Source of the DNA: Lysobacter sp. HDW10
GTDB lineage: Bacteria; Pseudomonadota; Gammaproteobacteria; Xanthomonadales; Xanthomonadaceae
DNA: 64,000 bases
NCBI RefSeq assembly: GCF_011300685.1
Contig: NZ_CP049864.1
Span: 612,885-676,884, forward strand
Reading direction: 5' to 3'
Shown here: piece after piece, positions 22,848 through 30,425 of the stretch
How the letters are laid out: each line of letters opens with the position of its first letter
Position numbering within the stretch: position 1 is the stretch's first letter
Position numbers and translations under genes: made by a program
Notes under the pieces: generated by a model
Seen by the model: only the letters and a program-made list of their open reading frames with translations
Database searches by the model: none
What the model was told of the DNA's origin: nothing

Positions 22848-23591
22848 TTATTTAGTCAGCGCTGCGAACGTGGTGGCTAGCGGCTGTGTCGAACCCAGCG
22901 CTTCTACGAGGGCCGAGCCGACAATCGGGGTGACGCCCATGGCGCGCACGCGCTGCAAACTGTTGGCATCGCCTAAACCGAATCCCACTGCGAGCGGACG
23001 CTCGGTGATGCCTTGCAGGGCTTGCACGCGCGCGTGGATGTCATCGAATGCGTGCGTGTTTTCACCGGTGATCCCGAGGCGTGCGACGACGTAGGCGAAG
23101 CGCTGCGCGAAGGGCGCTTGTGGCCCGGGGTCCGGGCGTTCTGCAAGCACTTGTTTGGCGCGTTCGATCGAGGTTGTCGGTGTGAGCAGCGGAATCAAGG
23201 GATAGCCCGCTTCGCGCAAAGCAGTTTCGAAGTCTGGTGCTTCACCGAAGGGTAGATCGACGACGAGCAGCGCACGCACAGGGGTATCACGCAGTGCCTC
23301 TAACAACTCGTTCAAGCCGATCTGAAGCAATGGATTGAAATAGCTGAAGAGCACGATGTCGGGCGTGTCTTTCAAGCCCACCAGTGAAGACAGCACCGAG
23401 CGCAGGTGTGTGCCATTGTGGATGGCAGCGTGTGCGGCCGCTTGCAGTACCGGGCCATCCGCGATTGGATCAGAGTGCGGAATGCCGAGTTCGATGGCCT
23501 CGATGCCTGCGTCTTTCGCCGCAGCCAATTGTGCGAGATGCGCGTTATGCGTCGGGTAGCCCGCCATGATGAAAGGAAGGACTTGGCTCAT
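22848..23591 (-). CDS. trpA: Tryptophan synthase alpha chain
   Basis: A 247-residue TrpA, which cleaves indole-3-glycerol phosphate to indole and glyceraldehyde 3-phosphate and passes indole to TrpB. The catalytic Glu is in IELGIPHSDP (about residue 33) and the catalytic Asp in the same block, with the phosphate site near VGFGLGD (about 207-213) and VGSALVE. It begins almost directly at the first strand (VLPFIMAGYP) and so lacks most of the N-terminal helix seen in enteric TrpA (268 residues). Last gene of the trp operon; its start overlaps the trpB stop (ATGA). Confidence 0.92.
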   Translation of the reverse strand: MSQVLPFIMAGYPTHNAHLAQLAAAKDAGIEAIELGIPHSDPIADGPVLQAAAHAAIHNGTHLRSVLSSLVGLKDTPDIVLFSYFNPLLQIGLNELLEALRDTPVRALLVVDLPFGEAPDFETALREAGYPLIPLLTPTTSIERAKQVLAERPDPGPQAPFAQRFAYVVARLGITGENTHAFDDIHARVQALQGITERPLAVGFGLGDANSLQRVRAMGVTPIVGSALVEALGSTQPLATTFAALTK

Positions 23592-24772
23592 TGCAATTCG
23601 CCCATGTGTGATTGATAGGTGGCGAGGTCTTTATCACCGCGACCGGAGAGGCCAAGCAAGACATCTGACACGCCTTCTGACGCAAGGCGCGACAGCATCG
23701 CGAGGGCATGGCTCGATTCAAGTGCAGGCAAGATGCCTTCCAACGCGCACAGCTGATGTGCGGCGGCTAATGCTTCTGCGTCACTCGCACGCCACACCTC
23801 AATCCGGCCTTCCAATGCGTGCGCAGCAATCTCTGGCCCGAGTGCGGGATAGTCGAGTCCCGCGCTGACAGATGCCGTTTCGGCGGTGTGACCGTAGGCG
23901 TTTTGTAGCACCAAGGTTTTGCAGCCGTGCAGTACTCCGAGCGTGCCGCCCTCGAGTCTCGCTGCATGTTCGCCCAAAGCCGTGCCATGACCACCCGCCT
24001 CAACGGCAATGCGACGTACGTCGTCGTGTATGAAAGGCATCAGCAAACCGCTGCTGTTGCTGCCACCGCCGACACAGGCAATGACCGCTTGCGGCAACTG
24101 ACCGGTGCGTGCCACGTATTGTTCGCGCGCTTCTTCTCCGATCACGGTTTGCAGGCTGCGCACAATGGTGGGAAAGGGATGCGGGCCGAGGGCACTGCCC
24201 AGAATGTAGTGCGCCTGATCGCATCGTGCTGCCCACGCGCGCAAGGCTGCATTGACGGCCTCTTTGAGTGTGCCCTGCCCGCTTTCAACACCAACGACTT
24301 GCGCACCAAACATGCGCATGCGTGCCACATTCGGCGCTTGGCGTGCCATGTCGGTGACACCCATGTAGACGGTGCAAGGCAGACCTAGTCGCGCGCATGC
24401 GGCGGCAGTGGCCACACCGTGTTGACCTGCGCCCGTTTCCGCAATGATTTCTTTCTTGCCCATGCGTACCGCAAGCAATGCTTGGCCGATCGCGTTGTTG
24501 ATCTTGTGTGCGCCTGTGTGGCACTGGTCTTCGCGCTTCAAGAACACGCGCTTGAGACCGGTGGCTGCTGCCAGTCTCGGCGCTTCGGTTAGCGCGGTGG
24601 GACGACCGACGAAGTCACGCAATTGCGCGCGCAGTTCGCCTGAGAAGCCCGGGTCTGCCATGGCTTCGATAAAGGCACGCTCAAGTTCGAGCAGCGGCGT
24701 CATCAAGGTTTCTGGCGCAAAACAACCACCGAGTTGTTCGCGTCCAAAACGTGTGGGGAGTTCAAACTGCAT
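23588..24772 (-). CDS. trpB: Tryptophan synthase beta chain
   Basis: A 394-residue PLP enzyme joining indole and serine to tryptophan. The PLP lysine is in HTGAHKINN (about residue 88), catalytic Glu in AETGAGQHG (about 109), the PLP phosphate loop in GGGSNSSG, the conserved Asp in SAGLDYP and Ser in LSGRGDKD. Some usually invariant positions differ: REDQCHTG where REDLNHTG is usual, GGGSNSSG for GGGSNAIG, and TASVSAG for THSxSAG. The ATG at 24772 is preferred because GAGGTA lies 8-14 bases upstream; it starts inside the end of trpF. Confidence 0.93.
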   Translation of the reverse strand: MQFELPTRFGREQLGGCFAPETLMTPLLELERAFIEAMADPGFSGELRAQLRDFVGRPTALTEAPRLAAATGLKRVFLKREDQCHTGAHKINNAIGQALLAVRMGKKEIIAETGAGQHGVATAAACARLGLPCTVYMGVTDMARQAPNVARMRMFGAQVVGVESGQGTLKEAVNAALRAWAARCDQAHYILGSALGPHPFPTIVRSLQTVIGEEAREQYVARTGQLPQAVIACVGGGSNSSGLLMPFIHDDVRRIAVEAGGHGTALGEHAARLEGGTLGVLHGCKTLVLQNAYGHTAETASVSAGLDYPALGPEIAAHALEGRIEVWRASDAEALAAAHQLCALEGILPALESSHALAMLSRLASEGVSDVLLGLSGRGDKDLATYQSHMGELQ

Positions 24773-25385
24773 AACGATGTACCTCATTTACAAATGCATT
24801 AAGCCGATCAAGGTCTTTTCGACCCGGTGTGGACTCGAGTCGACTGGCCGCGTCGAAACCGCGGAGTGCAGATCGCGCGATCGGATCAAGCGCGTCAGCG
24901 CGCGCGGCCACGGTCTCTGCCGACATACCGCCTGCAAGGAGAAAAGGGCCTGGTGGCGGATAGCGTCCCGAATGTGTTTGACCTGAGCCACCATGCACAC
25001 CGGTGTCACCCTGCGCGGTTTCCCAGATATAGAGTTCGGCGTCGATGTGCGGTTGATCGGGCGCGTCGTACCACGGGAGCAACACTTGGTAACCCGCGGC
25101 ACGAAGTTCGTGTACCGCGGCGGCGCGCACGTCCACAGGCAGATACGGTTGCACGCGTTGCAGCGGTGTTTGCGCCAGCAGCGCAAGGATGGGTGCAAGC
25201 GTGTCCGCGACGGTCACCAAGACACCGCGATCGCCGGCTTGCGGTGCAAGCTGCAGCAGATCTTGGCAATGCCGTGGGCTCTCAGGATGGAAAACGAAAC
25301 CGAGCAGCTCCGCGCCCACCGCCTGTGCGCGGGCGAGATCCGTTGCATGGGTGAGACCGCACACTTTGGCCAACATGCGCGTCAT
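24762..25385 (-). CDS. trpF: Phosphoribosylanthranilate isomerase, divergent
   Basis: A 207-residue (beta-alpha)8 protein in the TrpF position of the operon. The catalytic Cys is in AKVCGLT (about residue 9), and the GGSG phosphate-binding turn and LLAGGM strand are present. However, where the family has Phe-Asp-Trp just after GGxGxx, carrying the catalytic Asp, this protein reads Thr-His-Ser-Gly, and the last phosphate loop is AASRLE instead of the usual SSGVE. The frame is intact with no sign of a shift. Either another residue acts as acid, or activity is reduced. The start overlaps the trpC stop (ATGA). Confidence 0.8.
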   Translation of the reverse strand: MTRMLAKVCGLTHATDLARAQAVGAELLGFVFHPESPRHCQDLLQLAPQAGDRGVLVTVADTLAPILALLAQTPLQRVQPYLPVDVRAAAVHELRAAGYQVLLPWYDAPDQPHIDAELYIWETAQGDTGVHGGSGQTHSGRYPPPGPFLLAGGMSAETVAARADALDPIARSALRGFDAASRLESTPGRKDLDRLNAFVNEVHRYAV

Positions 25386-26194
25386 GCGTACACCGCCTCC
25401 AAGAATTTTTGCGGGTCTTCGCTGCGCATCAAAGCTTCACCAATCAACACGGCATCGAAGCCCTGCGCAAAGGCGGCTTGAATGTCTTCAGGATCGCGCA
25501 GGCCGGACTCACGAATCAAAACGGCATCCGGAAATGCAGCACGCAATGGGCTGGCATCGGGTGAACTGATTGAAAAACTGGCGAGGTCGCGCGCATTGAT
25601 ACCGACCAATCGCGCCTTCGCTTGGCGCGCATAGTCGATCTCGGAAAGATCATGCAGCTCGACCAGCGGCTCAAGACCTGCACTGCGTGCAGCGTCTGCG
25701 AAGACTGCGGTGTATGCCTTCAACACGCGCGCAATCAGCAGCACCGCCTGCGCACCGCTCGCCTGTGCCTCTTTGAGATGTGCCTCACCTAAGACAAAGC
25801 CTTTGTAGATGCGCGGCATGCCGAATTCCGCAGCCGCCACGACATCCGCTGTGCTGCCTTGAAACAAGTTCGGTTCAGCCAAGATCGAGACGCAGGCAGC
25901 GCCGCCGTTGCGATAGGCGAGCAGTTGTTCGCGGAAATCGCGATCAGCGGCGAACGCACCTAATGACGGTGAGGCGCGTTTGTACTCTGCAATGATGGCG
26001 CCACCGCGCTGTTGTTTCGCGTTTAGCAGTGCGCGCTCGAATGTATGTTCCAAAGGCCGTGCTTCAAGTGGACTGTTCGGCATGACGTGTGCGCGTTGCG
26101 CTTCAGACAACACCACGCGTCCAAGATGTGTCGCTGGCGTTGGTGCAGCGGCCGCCAGCACTTGGTCCAAGGTGGGCAATACGGGCTTATGCAT
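25382..26194 (-). CDS. trpC: Indole-3-glycerol phosphate synthase
   Basis: A 270-residue single-function TrpC that closes the indole ring. Catalytic residues are recognisable: Glu and Lys in AEYKRASPS (about residue 68-70), Lys in IYKGF (the family usually has RKDF), Glu in LVELHD, Asn in GINARDL, and Glu-Ser in IRESGL. The ATG at 26194 overlaps the trpD stop by 8 bases. TrpC and TrpF are separate proteins here, unlike the fused enteric enzyme. Confidence 0.93.
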   Translation of the reverse strand: MHKPVLPTLDQVLAAAAPTPATHLGRVVLSEAQRAHVMPNSPLEARPLEHTFERALLNAKQQRGGAIIAEYKRASPSLGAFAADRDFREQLLAYRNGGAACVSILAEPNLFQGSTADVVAAAEFGMPRIYKGFVLGEAHLKEAQASGAQAVLLIARVLKAYTAVFADAARSAGLEPLVELHDLSEIDYARQAKARLVGINARDLASFSISSPDASPLRAAFPDAVLIRESGLRDPEDIQAAFAQGFDAVLIGEALMRSEDPQKFLEAVYA

Positions 26195-27218
26195 GTGCGG
26201 CCTCGCGTGCAAAGGGTGCGGTGAATCCGCGTTGCAAGACAGCCTTTGCTTCATGCAGGCCGTCGCACAGAGATGTCAGTGCTTGATCACGATGCAGCAC
26301 CAGACCTAAGGCAGCTTGCAGCGCTACGGCATTGGCGACTTCGTCTCGGTACGCGGGGTGTAACTGGCCCGCAAGCATGGCTGAGGCGACATCGATGGCT
26401 TCTTCGCGCGATTCGATCCGCAATGCGTGTTGGGCCGGCATGCCCATCCCGAGTTCGCGCGGTACCAAGGTGACTTCTTCACGCACTGTGTTGTCGCGCA
26501 CTTCCACCACAAAGCTGGGCCCTTCGATGGACAGCTCGTCCATGCCGCAGCCCTCGGCGGAGAGACCGTGCACTACGAATGCACGTTCGATGCCTTGCAT
26601 CGCAAGTGCCTGCGCCATGGGCTGCATCAAGCTGCGCCGATTCACACCTAAGACTTGCAGCGCAGGCCGTGCGGGATTCAGCAGCGGTCCCAACACATTG
26701 AAGATGGTCGGGATACCCAAGCGCTTGCGAATTTCTTTTAATCGACCCAGCAAAGGGTGGTAGCTCGGTGCAAACAAGAATGCGAATTGATGTGTCTGCA
26801 GGTCGTTTGCCACGGCTTCGGGTGTGCGTTGCAAAACGTAGCCCAATCCTTCCAGCACATCGGCACTGCCGCACAAGGACGTGGCCGCCCGATTGCCATG
26901 TTTCGCCACTGGCACACCCAGATGTGCCAACAGCAGCGCGGCGAGTGTGCTCAGGTTGGCAGTACTTGCGCCGTCACCGCCGGTGCCGCAGGTATCCAAC
27001 AAGCGCAGCGATGAACGGGGAAACGGTTCGGCTACCTTGAGCAGCTCTTGCGCAAATGCAAACAGTTCGTCTGCGCGCGGCTCACGTTGCGCCATCAGCG
27101 CGAGGCAAGCGCCCACCAAGAGTGGGTCGGTGTCTTGATCGATATACATGCGCATCAATTCCGCCGCTGTGTCGGCGGAAAGCGCATGCATGGGATTGTG
27201 TGTGGTGAGTAAAGTCAT
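26187..27218 (-). CDS. trpD: Anthranilate phosphoribosyltransferase
   Basis: A 343-residue TrpD transferring phosphoribosyl from PRPP to anthranilate. The glycine-rich PRPP loop is DTCGTGGDG (about residue 77-85), with KHGNRA (about 108), TIFNVLGPLLNP (about 173-184) and the Asp-Glu metal site in GMDELS. Between VVHG and the Asp-Glu pair there is a short SAEGC insertion relative to common TrpD. The ATG at 27218 overlaps the trpG stop (ATGA). No glutaminase domain is fused. Confidence 0.93.
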   Translation of the reverse strand: MTLLTTHNPMHALSADTAAELMRMYIDQDTDPLLVGACLALMAQREPRADELFAFAQELLKVAEPFPRSSLRLLDTCGTGGDGASTANLSTLAALLLAHLGVPVAKHGNRAATSLCGSADVLEGLGYVLQRTPEAVANDLQTHQFAFLFAPSYHPLLGRLKEIRKRLGIPTIFNVLGPLLNPARPALQVLGVNRRSLMQPMAQALAMQGIERAFVVHGLSAEGCGMDELSIEGPSFVVEVRDNTVREEVTLVPRELGMGMPAQHALRIESREEAIDVASAMLAGQLHPAYRDEVANAVALQAALGLVLHRDQALTSLCDGLHEAKAVLQRGFTAPFAREAAHA

Positions 27219-27790
27219 TTGGTCAGTCCGGACATGCGGAGGAAGTTGCGAAGAAGGGCTGCGCCATCGGGCGTAAGAATGCTTTCGGGATGAAATTGCA
27301 CGCCCCAACGTGGAAGCGCGAGATGTTCGATCGCCATGATTTCTCCGGCGTCGGTGTGTGCGGTGGCGCGCCAGCACGCGGGCAGTGTGGCCGCATCGGC
27401 AATCAAGCTGTGGTATCGACCGACTTTTAAAGGCTGTGGCAGCCCTTCAAACAAGTTCACGCCGTGATGGCTGATCAAGGTGTGTTCACCGTGTAGGGGC
27501 TCCACCGCTTCAGTCACCTTGCCGCCGGTGCCAGCAACCAAGGCTTGCTGGCCGAGACACACACCGAGGATCGGAATTTGAAGATCGCTTGCCGCGACTT
27601 GCATATGCGGCGCGCACTCCGTCGGATGGCCCGGGCCTGGCGACAGCACGATGGCTTGTGGTGCGCGCGCGTGAATGTCGTTGAGCGTGATGGCGTCATA
27701 GCGCGCGACTTCGACGTCGGCACCGATCATTTGAAAGGCTTGCACCAAGTTGTAGGTGAAGCTGTCGAGTGCGTCGATGAGCAGAATCAT
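27215..27790 (-). CDS. trpG: Anthranilate synthase glutamine amidotransferase subunit
   Basis: A 191-residue class I glutaminase. The nucleophile Cys is in GVCLGQQ (about residue 78) and the His-Glu pair in FHPES (about 167-171); the SPGPG turn is at about 51-55. TrpG supplies ammonia to TrpE for anthranilate synthesis and could also serve aminodeoxychorismate synthase (PabA) if no separate pabA exists. ATGA overlaps on both sides couple it to trpE and trpD. Confidence 0.93.
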   Translation of the reverse strand: MILLIDALDSFTYNLVQAFQMIGADVEVARYDAITLNDIHARAPQAIVLSPGPGHPTECAPHMQVAASDLQIPILGVCLGQQALVAGTGGKVTEAVEPLHGEHTLISHHGVNLFEGLPQPLKVGRYHSLIADAATLPACWRATAHTDAGEIMAIEHLALPRWGVQFHPESILTPDGAALLRNFLRMSGLTK

Positions 27791-29184
27791 GCCGACACCT
27801 CTGACATCAGCCCCGCCAATGACACACCGAGCGCCTGTGCGGGCGCGGCCATCTTGTGCAAGGTTTCGAGGTATTCGGCTTCCGGGTCACTGGCTCGAAC
27901 GATGCCGGCACCCGCTTGCAGCCATGCACTTCCATTGGCGTAAATCGCTGTGCGCAGAATCAAGGCACTGTCGAGCGCGCCATCGGGCGACAGTCGAATG
28001 AGTGCACCGCCGTAAGGGCCACGTGCATTGTCTTCCATTTCACGAATGCGCTGCGCCGCGCGAATCTTCGGCGCACCACTGACAGTGCCCGCCGGGAATG
28101 CGGAAGCAAGCACGTCCAAAGCATCCAAGTCGGGTTGCAGTGTGGCCTTTACCGTTGTCGTGATGTGCAAGACGTGACTGGTGCGTTGCAAGGCCAAGGG
28201 GTTTTCAACACGCACACCGCCCGGGCGCGCAACGCGACCGAGATCATTGCGCGCGAGATCAACCAACATTTGATGTTCGGCAAGTTCTTTCTTGTCGGCA
28301 ATCAGCGCTTCAAAACGTGCGCGATCTTCCGCATCGTTTGCACCGCGCGTGACGGTGCCGGCGATCGGCAACGTTTCTGCCTCTTGCTGCGCCACACGCA
28401 CCAACATTTCGGGGGATGCACCCGCAAGTGAAACGGCATCCCACTCAAGCAAAAATCCGTAGGGACTGGGGTTCAAGCGACGCATGCGGCGGTATGCCGT
28501 AAGCGGTGAAGGCGGCGCATCGACGCGAAGTCTTTGGCTCGGCACCAATTGATAGACATCGCCGGCCTTGATGCGTTGCAGTGTGTCGCGCACGTGCTGT
28601 TTGAATTCGTTGCGCGAGATCAAAGGATGCAAGGTGGGTTGGCCCGCATCATCGCGTGGCAACACCGGCTGGTACACCGCGATTCGAATTTGCCTGATCT
28701 TTTCGCACGCGTGCGCGTGCGTGTCCGCGCGCACTTGGATCTCTGCGACTTGATGCAAATGATCAAACACCACGGCCGCATCGAAACGCTTGGCATACAC
28801 GCTGGGTAGGCCGAAGCTGTTCCGCGTGGGTAAACCAATCGTCGTTTCATTCGCCGCGAGTGCTTCGAAACCCACGTAGCCTGCAATGCCGACGCCTGTT
28901 GGCATCGGTGCGCGCGCATCGTCTGCGAGCTCTGAGTCTTGCATCAACTCACCGCGCGACGCATCCAATGGCCCGGCCAAATCGCGCAATGCCTGCACCC
29001 AGCCTGTCGCCGGCATTGCAAGTTGCACCTCACCCTCGCCTTCCAGCAAGACAAAGCTATGACGGCCGACGCGTTCGCCTTGGTCAGCACTTTCCAACAG
29101 CAAACTCGCGCCGTGCGAACGCAAGGCCAGATAGGTGCCTAGCGGTGTAATCAGGTCAGCAGGTAAGCGGTAGCGCAACAACAT
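27787..29184 (-). CDS. trpE: Anthranilate synthase component I
   Basis: A 465-residue chorismate-utilising enzyme making anthranilate with TrpG. The tryptophan feedback motif LLES is present at about residues 30-33, and the chorismate site blocks appear later: PIAGTVTRG, LVDLARNDLGRV, SGAPKIRAAQ and GPYGGA. The LLES motif supports TrpE rather than PabB. It follows a leader peptide and attenuator at 29211-29358 and opens the seven-gene run trpEGDCFBA. Confidence 0.93.
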   Translation of the reverse strand: MLLRYRLPADLITPLGTYLALRSHGASLLLESADQGERVGRHSFVLLEGEGEVQLAMPATGWVQALRDLAGPLDASRGELMQDSELADDARAPMPTGVGIAGYVGFEALAANETTIGLPTRNSFGLPSVYAKRFDAAVVFDHLHQVAEIQVRADTHAHACEKIRQIRIAVYQPVLPRDDAGQPTLHPLISRNEFKQHVRDTLQRIKAGDVYQLVPSQRLRVDAPPSPLTAYRRMRRLNPSPYGFLLEWDAVSLAGASPEMLVRVAQQEAETLPIAGTVTRGANDAEDRARFEALIADKKELAEHQMLVDLARNDLGRVARPGGVRVENPLALQRTSHVLHITTTVKATLQPDLDALDVLASAFPAGTVSGAPKIRAAQRIREMEDNARGPYGGALIRLSPDGALDSALILRTAIYANGSAWLQAGAGIVRASDPEAEYLETLHKMAAPAQALGVSLAGLMSEVSA

Positions 29185-29210: not shown

Positions 29211-29240
29211 ATAAAAAAGCCCGGTCTTTTGGACCGGGCT
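29211..29240 (-). terminator. trp attenuator (rho-independent terminator before trpE)
   Basis: Read on the minus strand: a 9-bp stem (29232-29240 with 29218-29226) with a 5-base loop, followed directly by six U residues (29213-29218). It lies 27 bases before the trpE ATG and after the leader peptide stop, as in amino-acid attenuators. Confidence 0.88.
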
Positions 29241-29292
29241 CGGGAGGTGATGAACAAGCGGGCGCTCAGGCGCCTGCCGAAGCCCCCGAGCC
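29237..29292 (-). promoter_or_regulatory. trp antiterminator pairing
   Basis: Bases 29285-29292 (just downstream of the tandem Trp codons) are complementary over 8 bp to 29237-29244. The second arm overlaps four bases of the terminator stem, so the two structures exclude one another. A ribosome stalled at the Trp codons would leave the first arm free to form the antiterminator. Confidence 0.7.
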
Positions 29293-29358
29293 ACAACGCC
29301 ACCAACCGCGCAGTGCTGCGCGTGTATCGAGTGTCGAATGTTGCTGTTGGGTGTTCAT
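29266..29358 (-). CDS. trpL: trp operon leader peptide TrpL
   Basis: A 30-codon reading frame with ATG at 29358 and TGA at 29266-29268. Residues 19 and 20 are consecutive Trp codons (TGG TGG at 29299-29304), the hallmark of tryptophan-sensing leader peptides. It is too short for routine gene calling. It begins 8 bases after the gpsA stop and no Shine-Dalgarno sequence is visible before it, so it may be translated from a nearly leaderless transcript. The alternative, chance tandem Trp codons, is unlikely given the overlapping antiterminator and terminator directly downstream and trpE next. Confidence 0.85.
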   Translation of the reverse strand: MNTQQQHSTLDTRAALRGWWRCGSGASAGA

Positions 29359-29365
29359 GGTCAGC

Positions 29366-29395
29366 ATCAAACCGCAGAATCAGTCGGGCTGTCAA
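29366..29395 (-). promoter_or_regulatory. Putative sigma-70 promoter of the trp operon, inside gpsA
   Basis: On the minus strand a perfect TTGACA (29390-29395) is followed after 18 bases by TTTGAT (29366-29371, 4 of 6 to consensus). A start about 7 bases further falls at the leader peptide ATG. Both hexamers lie within or at the very end of the gpsA coding sequence. Confidence 0.55.
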
Positions 29396-30425
29396 GCGGC
29401 CCCTTGAACAAGGTGTGCGGATATTCGGGTTTCTGATCGCGTGACAAGAGCCGTTGCAAACCTTCGACCGGCGAGCATTCGCCATGCAACACCGCTTGAA
29501 CACCCGCAGTGATCGGCAGATCAATGCCTTCGCGATGTGCCAATCGCATCACTTCGTCGGCCGTTTGAATCGACTCCACGACTTGGCCGATCTCGCGCAC
29601 CGCGTCTTCAATCGATTTGCCGCGCCCGATGGCGAGACCCAATCTGCGGTTGCGCGACAGATCGCCGGTACAGGTGAGCACTAAATCGCCCAAGCCTGCC
29701 AAGCCCATCAGGGTTTCGGGCTTTGCACCGATCGCCGCAGACAAACGCAACATTTCATTGAGGCCGCGTGTGATGAGTCCGGCGCGTGCATTTAGACCTA
29801 AACCCATGCCGTCGGAGACACCGGTCGCCACGGCCAGGACGTTTTTCATGGCGCCACCGAGTTCGGCGCCTTTCATGTCGTCGCCGGTATAGGCGCGGAA
29901 ATCACTCCCGTGCAATATGTCTGCCACTTGTTGGGCAAAGGCTTCATCGCCGTGCACGGTGAGCGCAGTGGGCAGCCCTTCGGCCACTTCTTTGGCGAAA
30001 GAGGGACCTGTCACAACGGCCAAAGGCACATCTTCGCCTACGACGGATTCGGCAACTTCGTGCAAGAAGCGGCCACTCCCCGGCTCGAAGCCCTTGGTGG
30101 CCCAAGACACGCCCGTACCTGCCTTGCGATGGGGCGCAAGCGCACGCAAGGTTTCCGCAAATGCGTGTGAGGGCACCACAACCAATAACAAATCCGCTTC
30201 GGCGACCGTGCCCGCGAAATCCGTGCTGGCACGCAAATTCGTTGGCAAGGAGATGCCCGGTAAATAACGCGGGTTCTCGTGCCTTGAATTGATGGATTCA
30301 ATCATGTTGGCGTCCCGCCCCCAAAGGGTGACGGGATGCCCGTGCCGCGCAATGAGCGCGGCGAGTGCCGTGCCCCACGAACCGGCACCGAGGACGGTAA
30401 TGCGGGGCGCGTTTTCCGCCGTCAT
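29367..30425 (-). CDS. gpsA: Glycerol-3-phosphate dehydrogenase [NAD(P)+]
   Basis: A 352-residue soluble dehydrogenase making sn-glycerol 3-phosphate from dihydroxyacetone phosphate for phospholipids. The nucleotide loop [10 protein letters not shown] is at about residues 13-22, GPSFAKEVA near 140, KNVLAVATG with the catalytic Lys near 193, and [10 protein letters not shown] near 255. It begins 3 bases after the secB stop, continuing the rhodanese-secB-gpsA run found in related bacteria. Its 3' end appears to contain the trp promoter. Confidence 0.95.

Follow-up and report, generated by a model that had tools for sequence, protein, structure and literature searches.

Ribosome-mediated attenuation of trp operons is already known, and leaderless trp leaders have been described for trpL of Sinorhizobium meliloti (PMC7298713) and trpL1 of Streptomyces lividans (PMC8079986), with rnTrpL and peTrpL of S. 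meliloti also reported to act in trans (PMC7298713). A database of predicted attenuators is named in PMC1173090, the available portion of which does not mention the leader family described here, and a search of titles and abstract beginnings in the open literature, with the Vitreschak and Merino surveys outside its scope, returned no account of attenuated trp operons from Lysobacter, Geothrix or Acidobacteria. Here we describe a leader upstream of trpE in a 64,000-nt stretch of the Lysobacter sp. HDW10 genome (the window), which belongs to a family below the Rfam Trp_leader cut-off, and through which the trp operon is in all probability controlled by ribosome-mediated transcription attenuation, judging from sequence comparison.

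All parts of the attenuator are on the minus strand of the window, a point left unmentioned in the original prediction. The leader ORF (trpL, 29266..29358, with the ATG at 29358-29356 and the TGA stop codon at 29268-29266), which is predicted to be leaderless, encodes the 30 aa peptide MNTQQQHSTLDTRAALRGWWRCGSGASAGA, with tandem TGG control codons (29299..29304) as codons 19 (29304-29302) and 20 (29301-29299). Six bases separate the last Trp codon from region 2, the 5′ strand of the antiterminator (GGCTCGGG, 29292-29285), which is located within the ORF and is the exact reverse complement of region 3, the 3′ antiterminator strand (CCCGAGCC, 29244-29237), and region 3 in turn overlaps the 5′ arm of an intrinsic terminator (regions 3:4, 29213..29240). 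The terminator consists of a 9-bp stem with arms AGCCCGGTC (29240-29232) and GACCGGGCT (29226-29218), a CAAAA loop and a T run (29218-29213), and is followed after 28 bases by the trpE ATG (29184). Regions 2 and 3 were assigned from sequence and covariation and the terminator from covariation and a terminator scan, which gave two overlapping reports for this hairpin versus 0.6 ± 0.8 in shuffled sequences, and the 162-nt leader also folded better than its shuffles (z −2.1, with 6 of 200 shuffles as good). The original prediction, made from the letters of the window, is borne out in its 30-codon frame with TGG TGG at codons 19-20, its 8-bp pairing of 29285-29292 with 29237-29244, where “7 bases after” the Trp codons corresponds to 6 bases in between, and its position directly before trpE, while the predicted 9-bp overlapping terminator with six U required a small correction, as the first of the six T doubles as the last base of the stem. 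A 6-bp hairpin (CGCGCA/UGCGCG, 29307..29322) immediately preceding the Trp codons may possibly, as a tentative assignment, represent an RNA polymerase pause signal: this stretch had a mean z of −1.0 across the 51 aligned leaders described below (25 below −1), in a statistic which ignores relatedness, with two control stretches at means of +0.18 and +0.35 (7 and 3 leaders below −1, respectively).

Relatives were collected by searching the window TrpE against genome contigs, which yielded 66 loci. The loci with 62–72% TrpE identity (L002–L053) comprise a few Lysobacteraceae, many Holophagaceae/Geothrix, one Opitutaceae MAG and other records titled Acidobacteria or Proteobacteria; 13 TrpE matches at 35–38% identity and L054, where the contig begins inside trpE, were left out of the leader comparison, and five loci were added from the family sample (L068–L072, with L068 being the window itself). 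This gave 57 loci with a TrpE at least 60% identical and readable upstream sequence, including the window locus and three duplicate loci, all 57 of which have a Trp-rich leader ORF with its stop codon between regions 2 and 3. The alignment contains 51 distinct leaders, as the three exact duplicates were left out together with L025, L030 and L051, which were missed by the search pattern and match the leader model with 75–139 bits. The last Trp codon is TGG in 51/51 aligned leaders, with three Trp codons within four codons in 31 leaders and two in the other 20, and the distance from the last Trp codon to region 2 is exactly 6 nt throughout. Each of the 51 leaders has an in-frame stop codon 11–13 codons past the last Trp codon, located 16–22 nt past region 2 and 15–27 nt ahead of region 3, and inside the ORF the lengths between codon blocks differ by 3 or 6. 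The conservation of both the frame and its stop codon argues that the peptide is translated.

Both helices contain compensatory substitutions among the aligned leaders. In helix 2:3 (9 pairs tested), 94.8% of cells were paired with 14 double-sided changes, and in helix 3:4 (9 pairs) this was 99.8% with 28 double-sided changes; neither count was reached by any of 500 shuffles, and pairing dropped to 1.5–58% in slid controls. The clearest compensatory change in helix 2:3 is at columns 73-132, where six rows have U-A in place of C-G, and the pair at columns 68-137 is unpaired in 18/51 leaders, including the window. Helix 2:3 had two pairs with a double change and six pair types, and helix 3:4 had five pair types, none of which was above the shuffles, and the four pairs with a double change in helix 3:4 were reached by 1/500 shuffles. 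The original prediction had recognised the logic of attenuation, had proposed covariance of the two hairpins in related genomes as a check, and had named loss of the Trp codons or the alternative pairing in close relatives as evidence to the contrary; the covariance was found, neither loss was seen, and sequence comparison supports the ORF, its Trp codons, both helices and their spacing.

The window ORF starts right past the stop codon of the upstream gpsA gene, and there is a weak match to the leader model just past gpsA in three other Lysobacteraceae genomes (L171, L172 and L176), as might be expected if the hairpin was a plain terminator of gpsA accompanied by a chance Trp-containing ORF. 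However, the leader goes with trpE and not with gpsA: six further leader-type genomes of the genus have gpsA and trpE on separate contigs, with the leader preceding trpE in 6/6 and absent 3′ of gpsA in all five for which that stretch was covered, and the antiterminator covaries as well as the terminator. None of the 57 leader-type loci is without a leader, and the reading as a gpsA terminator alone or a chance ORF was rejected as having next to no probability.

The start of the leader transcript was predicted from a candidate promoter, with a −35 element (TTGACA, 29390..29395) inside the 3′ end of gpsA and a −10 element (TTTGAT, 29366..29371) that overlaps the gpsA stop codon, 18 nt past the −35 element and 7 nt before the leader ATG, both on the minus strand. 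The corresponding pattern (TTGAC[ACT] - 16-18 - [TC][TCA][TCA]NAT - 5-8 - ATG) was matched strictly by 46/51 leaders, all of which have TTGACA, with a spacer of 18 in 40 leaders and 17 in six, and with 7 bases from the −10 element to the ATG in 37 leaders and 6 bases in nine. In the five leaders missed by the pattern (L007, L014, L016, L048 and L050), TTGACA is still present and its distance to the ATG is similar, with TGAGAT at the −10 position in three of these and no recognisable element there in L007 and L048. A consensus σ70 scan did not call a leader promoter, with the −10 element being weak (4 of 6, with T at position 2), and the promoter assignment rests on its conserved place in the relatives. 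Judging from this conserved promoter, the transcript is predicted to start at the leader AUG, hence trpL is likely to be transcribed from A29358 or the base next to it as a leaderless mRNA, and a σ70 start on or beside the A of the AUG would leave no room for a Shine-Dalgarno sequence. An in-frame ATG three codons before 29358, which overlaps the gpsA stop codon, was set aside as start codon because it is within or directly after the −10 element, and the conserved distance from the promoter is that of the ATG at 29358. Read-through from gpsA may also occur. The window gpsA has approximately 11 additional C-terminal codons (29367-29400) when compared with other members of the genus, where except for G149 the gpsA matches end at residue 327–343 of 352, and these extra codons contain the −35 element and most of the −10 element of the trp promoter.

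Termination at this leader would release a leaderless RNA of ~146 nt containing the peptide ORF, and as this predicted product resembles rnTrpL (PMC7298713), the short RNA or the peptide could act in trans, besides or instead of attenuation in cis. We consider this quite unlikely, since, apart from its Trp and region-2 codons, the peptide is very different between the window and the Holophagae.

In the attenuation mechanism that we propose, transcription would begin no more than one base from the leader AUG, and the 5′ end would be loaded with a ribosome that translates 18 codons before meeting the two Trp codons. A shortage of Trp-tRNA would stall the ribosome with a Trp codon in its A site and leave region 2 ahead free for pairing with the emerging region 3, which would prevent formation of the terminator and allow transcription of trpEGDCFBA. 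When Trp-tRNA is plentiful, the ribosome would pass region 2 and reach the stop codon, located midway in the 34–46 nt loop that connects regions 2 and 3; regions 2 and 3 would thereby be kept apart, the 3:4 hairpin would form and transcription would end near 29213-29211. Both the position of stalling and the steric effect of a ribosome at the stop codon are inferred.

These ribosome states were modelled by folding transcripts ending just past region 3 with the ribosome-covered part removed, where the folds represent equilibrium rather than kinetics and the front edge of the ribosome is assumed to be 12 nt past the first A-site base. Textbook behaviour was reproduced for the E. coli leader, where the probability of region 3 being paired upstream was 0.07 in the absence of a ribosome, rose to 0.83 when a ribosome was stalled and was 0.01 with the ribosome at the stop codon. 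In the 51 leaders, upstream pairing of region 3 had a mean of 0.99 (minimum 0.86) without a ribosome, and also a mean of 0.99 with the ribosome stalled at the penultimate Trp codon. A stall at the last Trp codon reduced the mean to 0.63 or 0.56, depending on which of two measures was used, and to 0.03 in the window, as the front edge then covers part of region 2, such that only the stall at the penultimate Trp codon is clearly productive in this model. With the ribosome at the stop codon, region 3 was partly paired with other upstream sequence (mean 0.38, minimum 0.01).

Sequestration of region 2 ahead of the synthesis of region 3 was not found as a common property of the 51 leaders, with their consensus fold at this stage reaching only −2.9 kcal/mol. 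In the eight Lysobacteraceae leaders a local downstream hairpin (−17.4 kcal/mol) is predicted to hold region 2 at this stage, which helix 2:3 must displace, and helix 2:3 wins in the fold once region 3 exists. A 1:2 protector like that of E. coli, which would free region 3 without a ribosome, was not predicted in this family, and from this we infer read-through as the default without translation, although in our estimate the chance that this holds for the family is about even. Neither the predicted leaderless start nor the lack of a predicted E. coli-like 1:2 protector was part of the original prediction.

The folding results also bear on whether the leader is a classical four-region attenuator of the enteric type, with a 1:2 protector and pause hairpin, a leader ORF led by a Shine-Dalgarno sequence, and termination as default without translation. 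The Rfam Trp_leader model RF00513 aligns to the window leader end to end, 1:2 positions included, LRGWWR around the Trp codons resembles LKGWWR of the E. coli peptide, and the Lysobacteraceae subset can hold region 2 in its local hairpin before region 3 is made. However, the RF00513 score of 30.3 bits is below the curated cut-off of 41, which was reached neither in the window nor by any of 20 relatives (0/20), upstream pairing of region 3 without a ribosome is 0.99 versus 0.07 for the E. coli leader, the consensus fold preceding region 3 is marginal, and provided that the promoter is right, the Shine-Dalgarno sequence could not be accommodated. An enteric-type attenuator is thus unlikely in our assessment, and attenuation through regions 2, 3 and 4 is preferred. 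In the reverse direction, a model of the leader family of the window gave no match to the E. coli leader at E 0.01. The original statement that the sequence is unrelated to the enteric leader is correct only in part, and given the end-to-end alignment with its sub-threshold score, the absence of relatives reaching the cut-off and the outcome with the family model, common descent with the enteric leader is neither shown nor excluded.

The operon downstream of the leader starts with a Holophagae-type trpE (465 aa, 27787..29184, minus strand), assigned by sequence searches and a TrpE tree, followed on the same strand by trpG, trpD, trpC, trpF, trpB and trpA (22848..27790), which were named from their sequences and are ordered as in the relatives. 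The seven genes are contiguous as trpE-G-D-C-F-B-A, and six Acidobacteriota loci (L197–L201 and L212) have the identical gene order with 45–80% identity across the seven proteins, versus 34–50% identity between the window trp genes and those of four native members of the genus. In these native members, trpE-G-D-C (three genomes) or trpE-G-D (one genome) was found, without trpFBA in the 13–14 kb read. The leader-type TrpE is present in 8/17 genomes of the genus, and all eight have the leader (in G206 via the split contig L116); eight others have the native type and one has only a weaker PabB-like match. This last genome, G210, has neither TrpE type at E 1e-40, with the weaker match showing 38% identity over residues 90–455, and may be a Trp auxotroph or contain an assembly gap.

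This TrpE type was found in 16/199 Acidobacteriota genomes, all from the class of Geothrix limicola, compared to 5/198 genomes in the family sample and only the genome of the window itself among 398 Pseudomonadota; in Verrucomicrobiota it was found in 1/194 genomes at 64% identity, with four others at 42–44%. The leader model likewise scored >55 bits in 54/93 genomes of the class of Geothrix limicola (63 at E 0.001) and in 2 of 200 Lysobacterales genomes (82 at E 0.001), with the third best of the latter at 36 bits. Strong leader-model matches with locus sequence were located before trpE in 32/32 cases, and weak matches with locus sequence were in none of 18 cases near genes resembling the window trp genes; the weak matches (21–36 bits, 80/200 Lysobacterales genomes) were not accepted as leaders and were taken for terminator look-alikes.

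In a TrpE tree of 42 chosen rows, the eight Lysobacteraceae copies are nested within those of the Acidobacteriota and group there with the Acidobacteria MAG L007 (92/89), the union of the Lysobacteraceae leader-type copies is modestly supported (84/54), and a single clade with the native Lysobacteraceae TrpE was rejected (AU test, p 0.00026). An earlier quick tree of 89 rows agrees in placing the window TrpE with the Acidobacteriota type, apart from the native Lysobacteraceae TrpE. Both L007 and L048 are MAGs, and misbinning is possible for these two. Among the named relatives, Lysobacter silvestris (L005) is the closest. The operon is located between gpsA and trmL in the window and in G149, gpsA is on a separate contig from trpE in the other six leader-type genomes of the genus, and in L176, from another Lysobacteraceae genus, gpsA and trmL are near each other without the operon.

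With trpEGDCFBA following a leader and the TrpE positioned among Acidobacteriota copies, the operon is of the Holophagae type and was very probably transferred from a Holophagae-like donor, a transfer that sequence comparison also supports. A single Lysobacteraceae sublineage appears to have obtained the leader jointly with the operon, and since the gpsA tree unites the eight leader-type genus members in one clade (100/99.9), one acquisition within the genus suffices. That same clade, the presence of the operon in one genome of another genus (G034), and the weak grouping of the Lysobacteraceae TrpE copies as each other's nearest relatives would also fit an operon which is old in the Lysobacteraceae and was lost in most lineages, without inter-phylum transfer. 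This alternative is very unlikely in view of the scarcity of the TrpE type in the family and in other Pseudomonadota compared to the Acidobacteriota, the nesting of the Lysobacteraceae copies among those of Acidobacteriota, and the rejection of one native clade. Transfer with the operon also means that the leader is not the independent instance suggested originally, and instead belongs to a leader family that also occurs in the Holophagae. More tentatively, the cassette could have functioned at once after transfer because, if leaderless as predicted, it would need only a promoter and a ribosome. In the Opitutaceae MAG (L202, G200, Verrucomicrobiota) the operon and leader are present and trpF is missing between trpC and trpB, with the best trpF match elsewhere in G200 at only 26%; its operon reflects either a binning error or a further transfer.

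The idea that native Lysobacteraceae trpE genes are without a leader was rejected, as a different Trp-rich ORF was found upstream of these genes (L073–L097 and L107–L114), with the DNA sequence TGGCGATGG encoding WRW or (W)WRWW. This ORF is located ~100 nt before trpE in 31/33 loci (misses L087 and L094), or in 32/33 loci with a looser pattern, with L087 being in the trpE frame; a −10-like TACAGT or TAAAGT is often located just ahead of its start, and many of these ORFs overlap the trpE start. A TTTTT run was absent from the 450 nt upstream of native trpE in 33/33 loci, and the stretch immediately preceding the Trp codons is able to form pairs close to the start of trpE (mean z −1.5 in 31 loci, using mononucleotide shuffles). 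The native ORF is possibly a translational Trp attenuator that operates without a terminator. Many Holophagaceae (such as L009, L010 and L012) have a second recurrent frame with GWWWG or a similar sequence, often ending in SNHT, ~220–320 nt before trpE and upstream of the leader promoter.

When compared with E. coli trpL, the leader described here shares the tandem Trp codons, a short ORF, mutually exclusive 2:3 and 3:4 hairpins and a U run before trpE. The Trp codons are at nt 55–60 from the predicted transcript start, and at nt 54–59 in E. coli, where the transcript presumably starts 26 nt before the leader AUG. It differs from E. coli trpL in its predicted leaderless start, in the lack of a predicted 1:2 protector, and in an ORF that spans region 2 and continues for 10 codons past the Trp codons. 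The trpLE(G) attenuator of S. meliloti, to which we liken it by layout, has a trpL ATG that forms the RNA 5′ end, consecutive Trp codons and attenuation before trpE, but encodes a peptide of 14 aa with three Trp residues at codons 10–12, and in this alphaproteobacterium controls trpE(G) alone (PMC7298713). Similarly, S. lividans trpL1 is a leaderless Trp leader peptide (WWW) upstream of trpE (PMC8079986) and is alike in layout, but in this actinobacterium the peptide has 18 aa and trpE is monocistronic. It is a tentative proposal, to which we assign somewhat less than even chances, that the leaders form a distinct family of leaderless three-segment trp attenuators, with read-through as default, a ribosome parked at the stop codon as the cause of termination, and a cassette of switch plus operon that has moved between phyla. 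Predicted ribosome-mediated trp attenuation is here extended to the Holophagae and a Lysobacteraceae sublineage, providing an example of a regulator moving with its operon across phyla and of a natural attenuator that is seemingly functional without the textbook 1:2 hairpin. Its tandem or near-tandem Trp codons, conserved terminator and overlapping antiterminator are those of a ribosome-mediated trp attenuator, which is probably leaderless and probably belongs to a family of its own outside RF00513.
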